The position numbers and the translations under genes were made by a program. The notes beneath the pieces are model-generated. The model saw only the letters and a program-made list of their open reading frames with translations. It ran no database searches and had not been told where the DNA came from. DNA of 64,000 bases from NCBI GenBank assembly GCA_023663135.1, contig JAMPIE010000004.1, positions 1 to 64,000 of the forward strand, given 5' to 3'. Positions 1 through 36,070 of the stretch are shown piece by piece; the first letter of the stretch is position 1, and each line of letters starts with the position of its first letter. The stretch comes from Alloprevotella sp. (GTDB lineage: Bacteria > Bacteroidota > Bacteroidia > Bacteroidales > Muribaculaceae).

Positions 1-54
1 ATAGCGGGTAAAGATAATACATTTTGGGGCGATGGGTATGTAGTAAACCTTTTT

Positions 55-985
55 TTGGGGGTCGCCGGGGGATCCGAGGGGCGTGGGGCAGGCTCGCGGT
101 GGGTGCAACCCCTCCGGGGTTGGCCGGGGGTATCGGGATGTGTCGGTCCGGGGGTAGCGGGGTGCGCCGCCTACGGCATCGCGCCCGCAACCCCCGGTTA
201 TGTCGCAGTGGATGGCCTCCGGCCATCTGTCGCGGTGGGGGTCGGACGGGTCGTGGCGGGGCAGGGTCGCGGTGTGTGCAACCCCTCCGGGGTTGGCCGG
301 GGTAGCGGGGTTGGGCGGGCCGGGGGTAGCGGGGTGCGCCGCCGTTGCGGCTTCCCCACAACCCCCGGCTATGTTGCAGTGGATGGCCTCCGGCCATCTG
401 TCGCGGTGGGGGTCGGACGGGTCGTGGCGGGGCAGGGTCGCGTGGGTGCAACCCCTCCGGGGTTGTGGGTATGGTGGGGTTGGGCGGTCCGGGGGTAGCG
501 GGCTGCGGTGCCTTCGGCATCGCGCCCGCAACCCCCGGTTATGTTGCAGTGGATGGCCTCCGGCCATCTGTCGCGGTGGGGGTCGGATGGGCCGGGGTAG
601 CGGGGTGTGCCGGGCCGGGGGTAGCGGGGTGTGCCGCCGTGGCGGCTTCCCCGCAACCCCCGGTTATGTCGCAGTGGATGGCCTCCGGCCATCTGTCGCG
701 GTGGGGGTCGGATGGGTCGTGGCGGGGCAGGGTCGCCGGGGTGTGCAACCCCGCCGGGGTTGTGGGTATGGTGGGGTTGGGCGGTCCGGGGGTAGCGGGC
801 TGCGGTGCCTTCGGCATCGCGTCCGCACCCCCCGGTTATGTTGCAGTGGATGGCCTCCGGCCATCTGTCGCGGTGGGGGGTGCAGGGTCGGATGGGTCGG
901 ATGGAAAGGATGGGAAGGATGGGGCGCGAGGGCTATATGTATGTCGTAATCCTTCGGGGATGGCCTCCGGCCATCTGTCGCGGTG
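55..985. repeat. Degenerate tandem array of about 170-bp GC-rich units, each with two hairpins
   Basis: Two perfect hairpins alternate. Hairpin A (CAACCCC, 3-nt loop TCC or GCC, GGGGTTG) starts at 106, 279, 449 and 746. Hairpin B (GATGGCC, loop TCC, GGCCATC) starts at 211, 382, 552, 677, 849 and 959, always followed by TGTCGCGG. Unit spacing is 170-173 bp, with shortened units of 125 and 110 bp. Long open frames cross the region in several frames on both strands, as expected when GC-rich DNA lacks stop codons; their translations are low-complexity and share residues between frames. The array touches the left window edge and may extend beyond it. Function is unknown. Confidence 0.85.
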
Positions 986-1001
986 GGGGCGGTTGGGGCT
1001 T

Positions 1002-1127
1002 CGACCGCTGACGCGGTCGGTTTTCGTTTTTGTTGGCTTTCCGTGGGCACGGCCCACGGCTACTGTCTTGGGCCGCTAAAGCGGTCAAGCGGGCCCACGG
1101 CTACAATCTTGGATCGCTACGCGGTCG
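1002..1127. repeat. Cluster of REP-like short hairpins
   Basis: Immediately after the 170-bp array come different short inverted repeats: CGACCGC-TGAC-GCGGTCG at 1002-1019, CCGTGGGC-ACG-GCCCACGG at 1041-1059, and further GGCCGC/GCGGTC and GATCGC/GCGGTC pairs up to about 1127. The first is followed by a T-rich stretch, so it could end transcripts entering from the left. They resemble bacterial REP-type extragenic palindromes. No REP-associated transposase is visible in the window. The remaining 40 bases before the next gene show nothing. Confidence 0.6.
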
Positions 1128-1166
1128 TGTCGCGGTGGGTCGGGGTCGCGGCGGGGTGTCAAATTG

Positions 1167-2444
1167 TCAAGTTGAGGATTTGTCAGATTGATTGGGGCGA
1201 GAAGGGAGGGTGGGGTCCCAGCGGTAGAGTTTGTCGGAGGGGCGGACTTTGCAGGGGACGGAGATTGAGAAGGCATCGCCTTTGACGGCTTTTGCCACGG
1301 GGAGGTTGTCGACGCGAATCTCGCCGATGGTGATGGTTACGGCACCGGTTGTCGGGCCGATGATGATGGCTTCGTCGCCTTGGCAAAGCTCCCCGGCTTC
1401 CATTTTAAACTCGGCGACACCAATCTTTGGGAAGTGGCGCACGCCGCGAGCCACATATTGCTTGATGCGGGTGGCGCTGGAGCCATATTTGGAAGACCAT
1501 TCGCCGAGACGCCGGCCGAGGTAATAGCCATCCCAGAAGCCTCGATTGAAGACTTTAGCGAGCTCGCGGGACTGTTCCTCGGCCCACTCGGGAGAGAAAG
1601 AGCCGTCGGCAATGGCTCGGAGAGCGCGGTCGTAGGCTGTGACGACGGTGGTGACATACTCGGCGCCTCTGGCACGCCCCTCGATTTTGAACACCCTGAC
1701 GCCGGCGTGGGCCATTTTGTCGAGGAAAGAGAGTGTCTTGAGGTCTTTTGGCGACATGATGTATTTATTGTCGATCTCGAGCTGGTCGCCGGTCTCGAGG
1801 TCGGTGACGCGGTAGCCACGACGGCAAATCTGGCCGCATGTGCCTCGATTGGCCGATCGGTTCATCTCATGGAGACTCATGTAGCACTTACCGGAGACAG
1901 CCATGCAGAGCGCGCCGTGGCAAAACATTTCAATCTTGACCGGCTCGCCCTTTGGGCCGAGGATGGGGCGCGATAGGATGGCCTGATGGATGAGGCTGAC
2001 CTGGGATAGAGAGAGCTCTCGGGCGAGGACCACAGTGTCGGCCCATTGGGAGTAGAAGTTTACAGCCTCGACATTGGAGAGATTGAGTTGAGTGGAGATA
2101 TGGACCTCGAGGCCATGAGAGCGTGCACGAATTATGGCAGCCATGTCGGAGGCGATGACAGCCGAGACCTTAGCCAAGGCAGCAGCTCGGAGGATTTCGT
2201 CGAGCCGAGTCATCTCGTCGTCGTAGATGATGGTGTTGACGGTGAGATAGGTCTTAACGCCGGCCTCAGAAGCAATTGCGACAATGTTCCGGAGGTCGTC
2301 GAGGTTGAAGTTAGCGGCAGAGCCGGAGCGCATATTGAGGCCCTCGACGCCGAAGTAAACGGCATCGGTGCCGGCGTTGATGGCAGCGTGGAGCGATTCG
2401 TAGCTTCCAACGGGAGCCATCAGTTCAAAGTCATTGCGTGTCAT
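1167..2444 (-). CDS. Peptidase U32 family protein (TrhP/YegQ-like)
   Basis: This 425-residue protein begins with the U32 N-terminal pattern (ELMAPVGSYESLHAAINAGTDAVYFG in short) and carries the U32 signature around residues 171-190 with Cys175, Cys180 and Cys187, then Cys203 and Cys207 in NRGTCGQICRRGY, and the KIEGR motif near 255. Family members characterised in E. coli act in tRNA or rRNA hydroxylation rather than as proteases, so a tRNA-hydroxylation role is the best family-based guess. A C-terminal beta-barrel-like segment follows the TIM-barrel-like core. It is the last gene of a tightly packed minus-strand set; its ATG abuts the stop of the PAP2 gene upstream. The start is supported by that junction. 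Confidence 0.88.
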   Translation of the reverse strand: MTRNDFELMAPVGSYESLHAAINAGTDAVYFGVEGLNMRSGSAANFNLDDLRNIVAIASEAGVKTYLTVNTIIYDDEMTRLDEILRAAALAKVSAVIASDMAAIIRARSHGLEVHISTQLNLSNVEAVNFYSQWADTVVLARELSLSQVSLIHQAILSRPILGPKGEPVKIEMFCHGALCMAVSGKCYMSLHEMNRSANRGTCGQICRRGYRVTDLETGDQLEIDNKYIMSPKDLKTLSFLDKMAHAGVRVFKIEGRARGAEYVTTVVTAYDRALRAIADGSFSPEWAEEQSRELAKVFNRGFWDGYYLGRRLGEWSSKYGSSATRIKQYVARGVRHFPKIGVAEFKMEAGELCQGDEAIIIGPTTGAVTITIGEIRVDNLPVAKAVKGDAFSISVPCKVRPSDKLYRWDPTLPSRPNQSDKSST

Positions 2445-34705: not shown

Positions 34706-35248
34706 ATGGCAACAAAAATCAGACTGCAACGCCATGGTCGTAAGAACTATGCGTTCTATCCTATTGTTATCGCCGACAGCAGGGCACCACGAGATGGTAA
34801 GTATATTGAAAGGATAGGTTCCTACAACCCGAACACTAATCCTGCTACAATAACACTGAATTTCGAAAGGGCTTTGTATTGGCTCAACTGTGGCGCACAG
34901 CCCACCGATACCGCTCGCACCATCCTCTCCAATGAGGGCGTGCTCTTGATGAAGCACCTCCAGGGTGGCGTAAAGAAAGGCGCCTTTGATGAGGCAGAGG
35001 CACAGCGTCGCTTCGAGGCCTGGAAGCAGAAAAAGCAGGCAGCCGTAGACTCCCTCCGTGCTTCCGTAGCCGACAAGAAGGAGCTAGCCGCAAAGGCTCG
35101 CTTTGAGGCTGAGCAGGCCACCAACAAGACCATAGCTGAGGCTGTGGCCAAGAAGAAGGCCGAGGCTGCTGCCAAGGCTGCTGAGGAGGCTGCTGCCGCC
35201 GCTCCTGCCGAGGAGGCTCCCGCCGAGGAGGCTCCCGCAGCAGAATAA
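34706..35248 (+). CDS. rpsP: 30S ribosomal protein S16 with long C-terminal extension
   Basis: Residues 1-85 or so are a canonical S16 core ([39 protein letters not shown]). The total of 180 residues is about twice the E. coli length because of a charged helical segment (about 100-155) and an Ala/Glu/Pro-rich tail ending in repeated APAEE motifs. Extended S16 proteins are usual in Bacteroidales. It is a single-gene unit here, without the rimM-trmD neighbours found in many other phyla. A terminator hairpin follows. Confidence 0.96.
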
Positions 35249-35291
35249 GCGGGCATATCCTCTACCCGTCTATATCCTGTCGCAACAGACT

Positions 35292-35325
35292 AAGGGCTTG
35301 ATGTCATCATGGCATCAGGCCCTTT
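35292..35325 (+). terminator. Terminator of rpsP
   Basis: AAGGGCTTGATG at 35292-35303 pairs with CATCAGGCCCTT at 35313-35324 with one mismatch around a nine-base loop, followed by T and C. It lies 43 bases after the stop codon. Confidence 0.7.
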
Positions 35326-36070
35326 CGCTGTTAGAGTGCCAATTTGTTCTTGCCGTCGCCGGGTATTGTCGGAAAAACGAAAAGTACAATTTGTAAAAAC
35401 GAAAAGTACAATTTTTGCGGTTTTTTCGCGATGCCGGGATGGGTGTCTTGGCCTTGCCGTCCTCGTCATAGAAATTGTCAGCCGAGATGTAGAGATTTGA
35501 GAAATCAAGAGGTTCCTGGATACCGGTGGATGTGTTGAGGTGGGTAGTGGAGCATTTGAGGGAGTAACGGTTTAGGGCAGTTGCCGACAGAGCCTCGGCG
35601 ATGATTTGGTCGAAGGTGACACGCCCCGACAGATTGAACTCCCGGCTCTCCATCGGCCCGAGGTCGGAGAACGACAGCTCCACCACATAGCCGTCCTTCG
35701 TCGAGTAAGGCTCCTCATACAGCTCCGGCTCAATCGACCCGCGCCACACTACATCGTTCCCGGTCTTCACCTCCAACACAATGCTCAGTGGGTCGATGGC
35801 ATAGAGGTCTGTGAACGTTCGGTCGCCCGGCGAAATGAGCCGCAGCGTGGCCGTCGAGCCCTCCACGACATCCTCCGGCGCAACCTCGCTCCACTCCATC
35901 GACAACGGCGTGTCAGCGTCAAACATCAGATCCTCCACCACCGGGAACGCCCCGGCAGCCTCCTGATAGATCGTGACCTCCCACAGCCTTTCGACCGTGG
36001 CATAGTTATCCCCCTGTTGGTAGAACGGCCACAGCCCGTAAAATCTCCCATAATATCGCGGAAAAAGCAT
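35315..36070 (-). pseudogene. Remnant of a phage-like structural protein gene
   Basis: The open frame encodes 251 residues. Residues from about 28 (ERLWEVTIYQEA) to about 215 read as a coherent folded protein resembling tail-region proteins of Bacteroidota prophages (PLSMEWSEVAPEDVVEGSTA, GRVTFDQIIAEALS). The last 38 residues are basic, low-quality sequence that starts exactly where a 20-bp direct repeat begins, so the natural C-terminus has been lost. A phage proteins label rests on my recognition of the family and is not proven. It lies downstream of a second broken phage-like gene on the same strand, between rpsP and lptB. Confidence 0.6.
35373..35414. repeat. Two direct copies of a 20-bp AT-rich repeat
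   Basis: Identical 20-base copies at 35373-35392 and 35395-35414 (AAAAACGAAAAGTACAATTT) are separated by two bases, giving a 22-bp period. They fall at the point where the phage-like reading frame loses its normal C-terminal sequence. The composition is far more AT-rich than the flanks. They may mark an insertion or recombination junction, or be protein-binding iterons. Confidence 0.75.

Follow-up and report, generated by a model that had tools for sequence, protein, structure and literature searches.

Palindromic repeats that keep company with Y1 transposases have been described under several names. TIRtrons, named by Di Nocera et al. (2013, PMC3733652), consist of a Y1 gene lying between long inverted repeats (TIRs), some of them self-complementary, and in some genomes the TIRs also form repeat families elsewhere, frequently in dimeric or clustered form. 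Further marks of the kind are a GGGGWSAS motif and a subclass 2.1 protein with an HTH tail; 20 of the 26 published transposases of this kind (TIRYTs) have been placed in subclass 2.1 (PMC6006769). In the same classification (Quentin et al. 2018, PMC6006769), subclass 1.2 of TnpA_Y1 is defined by the signature Y---Q--HH, possesses a specific C-terminal domain and has Bacteroidetes among its hosts; its entry for REP in the table is 'no' and, according to the text, IS properties are not shared. Subclass 2.6 (TnpA_REP), also from Bacteroidetes, bears the Y motif YIH[QN]NP, and 'atypical secondary structures' with no GT[AG]G lie beside its Y1 genes and recur elsewhere in the genome (PMC6006769). 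REP, BIME and REPIN sequences are palindromes occurring in inverted pairs and clusters, with an HUH transposase (RAYT) as partner, and the REPs of S. maltophilia have 3-nt loops (PMC3733652, PMC8266576, PMC3116915).

Here we describe a hairpin array of an Alloprevotella genome. Our main reading, to which we give a probability of about 0.7, is that it represents a tandemly amplified REP/TIR-like cluster of three-hairpin (A-C-B) units, and that elements built on this plan constitute the inverted, outward-directed ends of subclass 1.2 Y1 genes in related Bacteroidota. TIRtrons are the closest known kind. The published ones belong mostly to subclass 2.1 (PMC6006769), whereas the proteins found here carry the signature of subclass 1.2; moreover, the ends described here are a fixed set of three hairpins, which in the genome under study are present without the gene. 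As far as the open-licence literature goes, the kind of system is already known, while the three-hairpin arrangement, how widely it occurs and the subclass of its partner appear to be new, no published account of them having been found there.

Results

Anatomy of the array

The window, i.e. the whole stretch of 64,000 nucleotides analysed, opens with a repeat array at about 85-990 (Table 1). The first-pass annotation had reported six copies of one hairpin and four of another, with perfect stems and trinucleotide loops, and in this it was exact. Hairpin B (GATGGCC-TCC-GGCCATC, GATGGCCTCCGGCCATC) occurs in six exact copies (starting at 211, 382, 552, 677, 849 and 959), and hairpin A (CAACCCC-TCC/GCC-GGGGTTG) in four (106, 279 and 449 with a TCC loop, 746 with GCC); all have perfect 7-bp stems and 3-nt loops, and for each pattern 0.01 copies are expected in shuffled windows (B with two mismatches permitted). 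What had been overlooked is a third palindrome (C), larger than the other two and situated between them, so that the unit is not a pair but three hairpins in the fixed order A-C-B. Palindrome C, composed of CCGGGGGT, an inner hairpin and ACCCCCGG, was recognised by eye in five units; it folds in a DNA fold of unit 446-568 (z -6.6), where longer pairing replaces the small A hairpin, and again in a second, separate folding analysis. The reported period of 170-173 bp applies to complete units, but not to all B-to-B spacings (171, 170, 125, 172 and 110), and along the array the two hairpins follow one another as A B A B A B B A B B. As stated previously, no gene explaining the array was seen, although long frames over it exist, and the longer low-complexity gene that had been considered as a refutation was not seen either; the nearest family-matched gene encodes a U32 peptidase.

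The coordinates of all these features are given in Table 1, together with the scores of R1, a covariance model of A-C-B built from 21 units chosen by sequence pattern.

Table 1. Features of the hairpin array and its surroundings (positions in the window; R1, covariance model score)
Feature	Position	Strand	Details
Leader	1-103	+	Common with the contig C13 copy, 84% across window 1-274; true left end beyond the contig start
Unit 1	104-227	+	A 106-122, C 148-197, B 211-227; R1 61.6 bits
Unit 2	277-398	+	A 279-295, C 320-368, B 382-398; R1 60.1 bits
Tandem duplication, 295 bp	290-879		290-582 repeated as 585-879; 278/295 aligned positions identical
Unit 3	447-568	+	A 449-465, C 489-538, B 552-568; R1 72.8 bits; among the 21 source units of R1
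Short unit 4	588-693	+	Without A; C 615-663, B 677-693; R1 24 bits; product of the 290-582 duplication
Unit 5	744-865	+	A (GCC loop) 746-762, C 786-835, B 849-865; R1 60.9 bits
Solitary B hairpin	959-975	+	Exact pattern match and perfect stem
Second, different unit	1000-1127	+	Same plan, other stems; R1 27 bits
Second unit, A-like hairpin	1002-1019	+	CGACCGC-TGAC-GCGGTCG; hairpin scan
Second unit, C-like hairpin	1041-1059	+	CCGTGGGC-ACG-GCCCACGG; hairpin scan; followed by CTAC at 1060-1063
Second unit, B-like hairpin	about 1071-1086	+	GGCCGCTAAAGCGGTC; by eye
Peptidase U32 family gene	1167-2444	-	Nearest family-matched gene; array on its 3' side

Two terminator-like signals were found against 1.2 expected; within window 1-1300 they are confined to 1001-1021, where the second unit's A-like hairpin precedes a T-run and doubles as a terminator-like structure. 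The same 1300 nucleotides hold no sigma-70-like promoter according to a scan directed at promoters of that type. Far from the array, at 35159-35414, the window contains low-complexity GCC/GCT/GAG repeats and a 22-bp direct repeat (AAAAACGAAAAGTACAATTTGT).

Array growth and the contig end

Part of the array arose by tandem duplication of a 295-bp segment. Its breakpoint falls within the A hairpin of unit 2, which is why short unit 4 has no A, and the event looks like an ordinary tandem duplication that followed once the units already stood in place. The units are 62-89% identical to one another, with many substitutions and indels, and a simple duplication made in assembly is therefore disfavoured. 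Such growth is not peculiar to this window, since another tandem array of A-C-B units, with a period of 432 bp, is present in genome G107 (L402, 439-1419). On a public Muribaculaceae MAG contig (L093, 4954-6124), hairpin A occurs three times in one orientation at intervals of 576 bp.

Homology with the copy on contig C13 extends to base 1 of the window, the first base of its contig (C40), so the left end of the array has been lost to assembly; as the contig starts inside the repeat, the array may be longer than it appears. Copies at or near contig ends were noted on C1, C3, C17, C26, C32, C36, C37, C38 and C40 of the same genome. It is therefore probable that the hairpin family breaks the assembly and that copy numbers are underestimates.

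Copies in the genome and the genus

The window's genome (2.28 Mb in 45 contigs, 99.7% complete) was searched for the hairpins, as had been proposed at the outset. They turned out to be dispersed, in ordered sets and partly in tandem, and the earlier suggestion of an amplified extragenic palindrome array was thus right in kind. Hairpin B is present in 25 exact copies and a further three with one mismatch (a reversed-pattern control gave 0), while a longer B pattern had no match among the genome contigs searched. The array gives 24 DNA matches across 13 contigs, itself included, and at least 23 R1 matches were obtained at E<=0.1, at least 19 of them at E<1e-5, when the best 150 of 776 candidates were scored; three units of this genome are among the 21 that built R1. 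As in REPs, these are short palindromes in many copies, intergenic in the window and at a few sites inspected by eye.

The copies adopt two arrangements, head-to-tail (C40, i.e. the window array itself, and C14) and head-to-head, B'C'A'-ACB (C36 and C11), the latter being inverted pairs without a gene, as in REPINs and MITEs. An exact CTAC follows C in some copies (C36, C11). By eye, the copies on C11 and C36 lie on the gene-start sides as well as at 3' ends of genes. The sequence shared by the copies stops at differing points, often at contig ends, and similar units are also found inside contigs C11, C13 and C14.

Among 34 genomes of the genus, exact B is confined to the window's own genome (0/33 others). 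An orthologue of the U32 gene was found in 30 of the 34, the own one counted, and R1 matches beside it only at the own locus (0/29 others; one of these loci has no downstream sequence and the others have up to about 1.5 kb). The sequence 3' of the orthologue differs among relatives and offers no strict empty site, and our claim is therefore confined to the absence of the element in them.

The A-C-B plan across Bacteroidota

When compared with 397 genomes of the family (best two candidates per genome), the array unit gave weak matches in at least nine others; several of these show the A-C-B order with other stems, and some are chance matches in coding-like sequence. The pattern of hairpin A (TGCAACCSCTCCGSGGTTG) was found in 107 stretches of public genomes. 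Names were listed for 80 of them: 66 carry a Bacteroidota label, and the remaining 14 include one 'Akkermansia' MAG, Verrucomicrobiales and Planctomycetes. Contigs assigned by label to Akkermansia muciniphila and Verrucomicrobiales (L082, L095, L106, L142) show the A-C-B plan, possibly through MAG contamination. Many of the A-pattern loci come from one Candidatus Symbiothrix MAG, and a reduced form, A followed by TGCTACAATAATGCAATCGC-TCC-GCGATT without a clear C, was observed at L078, L086, L092 and L134 of that taxon. A viral origin was considered and rejected: B has two matches in viruses (L178, L179) that look like chance and are accompanied by neither A nor C, and A has two (L180, L181) where, by eye, neither C nor B is present.

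Flanks of the full 140 nt were available for 111 of 119 A sites. Downstream of A, a hairpin with a 3-nt loop and a stem of at least 6 is present at 65 of the 111 sites (2.9 in mononucleotide shuffles), its loop being TCC in 51 of the 65, and both B-like and C-like stems are found at 53 of 111 (1.3 in shuffles). Unexpectedly, the upstream flanks are equally rich in hairpins (66 and 61 in the two counts), mostly of the inverted form; this fits inverted units, with GGA loops in 40 of 66.

A mechanical scan yielded 66 distinct A-C-B units, some of which, e.g. those of Symbiothrix, have a weak C. In the 21 units chosen for R1 the stems have undergone compensating changes: covariation reaches 0.382, compared with 0.103 after shuffling (0/500 as high) and 0.025-0.139 in slid controls. 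In this alignment 94.4% of stem cells pair, in part by construction, because the units were chosen for perfect stems; the C helix is 85% paired, because several alignment rows are off register. Taking the best ten candidates per genome, R1 matches at least 110 of the 397 family genomes, in at least 19 of 30 genera, and at least 25 of 375 sampled genomes of the phylum, in at least ten families including the own one.

In one genome (G280, L383-L392), A-C-B lies within a repeat that is bounded by the inverted repeats TAATGTCACTAAAATAAGC/GCTTATTTTAGTGACATTA, with small variations, and is surrounded by unrelated sequence, as judged by eye in nine of ten regions (the tenth lacks a right end). This repeat looks like a MITE of some other transposon that carries the hairpins as a passenger; since it has terminal inverted repeats of its own, another transposase may move A-C-B in this genome.

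Association with Y1 transposase genes

Of the 397 family genomes, 261 contain the Y1 transposase family PF01797; within the genus it is present in 18 of 34, the window's genome not being among them. We analysed 80 Y1 loci, the best of the PF01797 matches by E-value and not a random sample, with up to 5 kb per side; none of the 21 source units of R1 shares its locus sequence with a Y1 ORF. R1 matches crowd around these genes. There are 78 matches in all, 62 of them no farther than 600 nt from the Y1 core: 46 closer than 300 nt, 16 at 300-600, five at 600-1000, and farther out two at 1-2 kb, two at 2-3 kb and seven at 3-5 kb, which corresponds to densities of 0.977, 0.366, 0.088, 0.014, 0.015 and 0.029 per kb. 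Of the 46 matches closer than 300 nt, 37 point outwards, in the arrangement B'C'A'-[tnpA]-ACB (left/minus 21, left/plus 4, right/plus 16, right/minus 5). A match within 600 nt was found at 25 of the 80 loci and none at the other 55. However, a model-free comparison of each left flank with the reverse complement of the right one, made at the 68 loci that offered sufficient sequence, detected inverted flanks at 58 of them (10 without) against four of 68 in a mismatched-locus control (where four control partners came with less than 350 nt of right flank). Hence many Y1 genes without an R1 match still lie between inverted repeats. As in TIRtrons, then, the Y1 genes of these relatives are placed between long inverted repeats, which is not the case in the window's genome, and the inverted repeats form families elsewhere, R1 matches lying away from Y1 in several genomes. 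The label for an R1 flank requires 15 changes on a quick Y1 tree, compared with 21.3 after shuffling (0/300 as low). An additional case comes from a distant family, where a Y1-motif ORF is situated, to judge from coordinates, inside an inverted pair of R1 matches (L405).

Viewed from the repeats, the association is weaker. A Y1-motif ORF is present within about 1.5 kb at five of 38 loci around R1 matches of the family and phylum searches (U32 control loci, 0/29) and at five of the 107 A-pattern loci, as would be expected if copies far outnumber genes. At the level of genomes, 89 have both R1 and Y1, 21 R1 alone, 172 Y1 alone and 115 neither; Y1 is thus found in 89 of 110 genomes with R1 and in 172 of 287 without (Fisher P 4e-5, uncorrected for relatedness), where absences of R1 are weak, each resting on the best ten candidates of a genome. 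Two observations fit the main reading less well. Only 14 of 22 dispersed copies had a Y1 flank of their own genome as best match, and comparison of the window's unit with 67 Y1-flanking elements gave no identity above 0.66. The second and third bases after C are TA in 29 of the 52 scorable cases among 67 Y1-flank R1 matches, where composition predicts a frequency of 0.037; this is suggestive only, because the training units of R1 carried these letters. On the other strand, the TA suggestively resembles that of GTAG.

As for the proteins themselves, 76 of the 80 contain, anywhere in the open frame, the motif Y[IV]--Q--[HS]H (four do not), and their placement in subclass 1.2 rests on this Y---Q--HH signature, S being permitted for the first H. 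Y113, Q117 and H121 are invariant in an alignment of 18 proteins chosen from the 80. Four Y1 proteins scanned against NCBIfam scored above the cut-off of NF033573 (IS200/IS605 transposase) and below that of NF047646 (REP-associated transposase, RAYT). One compared with the PDB matched 2f4f, a putative transposase (3.5e-7), and the ISHp608 TnpA structures 2a6m/2vhg (about 1.5e-6). Subclass 2.6 was our first guess for the partner and was dropped once Q--HH emerged as the Y motif. A RAYT partner was sought as well: none of the 80 proteins was classed NP, and the window's genome has no match to NF047646. No Y1 gene was found in that genome by PF01797 or NF047646, both of which detected positive control genomes, or by a profile of the 18 proteins, run without such a control. 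A direct link to Y1 within the window's genome is missing for this reason.

Discussion

The array of the window is probably an orphan cluster of transposase-associated palindromic ends, similar to REPINs or MITEs, which was probably once mobile. We call the copies of this genome an orphan population because no transposase of the type encoded by its relatives was found in it.

The relationship to described systems is not a simple one. Although the proteins share the signature of subclass 1.2, inverted hairpin ends flank their genes, unlike the published 'no' for REP (PMC6006769). With REP, BIME and REPIN sequences the elements have in common the palindromes, the inverted pairs, the clusters and the HUH partner, and with the REPs of S. 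maltophilia also the 3-nt loops; they differ in having three different hairpins per unit, in the four partner proteins falling short of the RAYT cut-off, and perhaps in the tag after C, which appears to be mostly [CT]TA and not a strict GTAG (PMC3733652, PMC8266576, PMC3116915). The structures accompanying subclass 2.6 resemble them in lying beside a Y1 gene, in having copies elsewhere and perhaps in missing GT[AG]G, a comparison made by description only, but the Y motif is another (PMC6006769). Rfam, finally, gave no match at the gathering threshold in 11 sources.

The ends of IS200/IS605 elements are single subterminal hairpins. The transposases are of the same family, as seen from the four proteins above the NF033573 cut-off and the likeness to ISHp608 TnpA, whereas the ends described here are symmetrical, inverted and composed of several hairpins, and there are many copies without a gene.

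It may be envisaged that the Y1 transposase reads the hairpins as single-stranded DNA, recognising the loop and flanking bases and not the stem sequence, and that it cuts and rejoins them. Such cutting and rejoining would spread both half-elements (A-C-B) and inverted pairs without a gene (B'C'A'-ACB, REPIN/MITE-like). The enzyme would now be missing from the window's genome, and recombination or slippage would afterwards have lengthened the array at this site. What the enzyme of a REP system recognises is the palindrome in single-stranded form, together with a tetranucleotide beside it and, in group 3, particular bases of the loop; in one case, stem blocks could be changed without drastic effect, while a mismatch in the middle of the stem nearly abolished cutting (PMC8266576). 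A recognition rule of this type would explain why TCC loops are constant while the stems drift and yet remain paired.

Other readings have to be weighed against the same observations. The hairpin triplets could be targets or safe harbours for Y1 insertion, spread by something else, rather than the ends of an element. There is a published precedent in REPs that serve as targets of ISs (PMC1525189), 21 of the 110 genomes with R1 have no Y1 match, most copies lie away from a Y1 gene, and in G280 A-C-B is carried inside a repeat with inverted ends of its own. However, a Y1 element that entered an array already in place would not as a rule produce an outward inverted pair such as that seen in 37 of 46 matches within 300 nt and, as inverted flanks, at 58 of 68 loci, and loci with the same type of flank group together on the Y1 tree; we therefore regard this explanation as unlikely, if worth keeping in mind. 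It is considerably less probable that the unit is a selected structured RNA or transcript-end element, which ends transcripts or stabilises or attenuates mRNAs and whose dispersal is a by-product. Stable folds, compensating stem changes, the position of the array downstream of the U32 gene and the existence of populations without a Y1 match would all suit such a role, but Rfam has no match, the beginning of the window (1-1300) offers terminator-like signals at 1001-1021 alone and no sigma-70-like promoter, the sites judged by eye on C11 and C36 include gene-start sides and not 3' ends alone, and exact B occurs in one of 34 genomes of the genus.

Binding of gyrase or of a nucleoid protein has been proposed for the BIMEs of E. 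coli. The mosaic of palindromes in clusters, partly in alternating orientation (C36), is reminiscent of these, but an array of binding sites leaves the link to Y1 genes unexplained; the evidence points to transposase-associated ends instead, and we consider the binding-site explanation very improbable. Hardly any weight can be given to an assembly artefact at the contig end, a possibility raised by the first-pass annotation. The array does start at base 1 of its contig, which truncates its left end, and other copies lie at or near several contig ends, but units so divergent in substitutions and indels are unlike an assembly duplicate, and similar units are internal to other contigs.

Beyond the array itself, we consider it an even chance that HUH proteins of subclass 1.2 transpose a three-hairpin family throughout Bacteroidota, in which the stems drift while order, loops and flanks are kept, and whose elements outlive their transposase as orphans, perhaps with a role in the host. 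If the transposase-associated reading is true, HUH proteins that were published without a DNA partner would gain a specific, testable substrate, and a conspicuous class of repeats in Bacteroidota would be supplied with an origin. The covarying stems and constant loops suggest a recognition rule based on shape, loop and flank rather than on stem sequence. Moreover, genomes with and without the transposase would provide natural material on whether repeats are retained once mobility has been lost.
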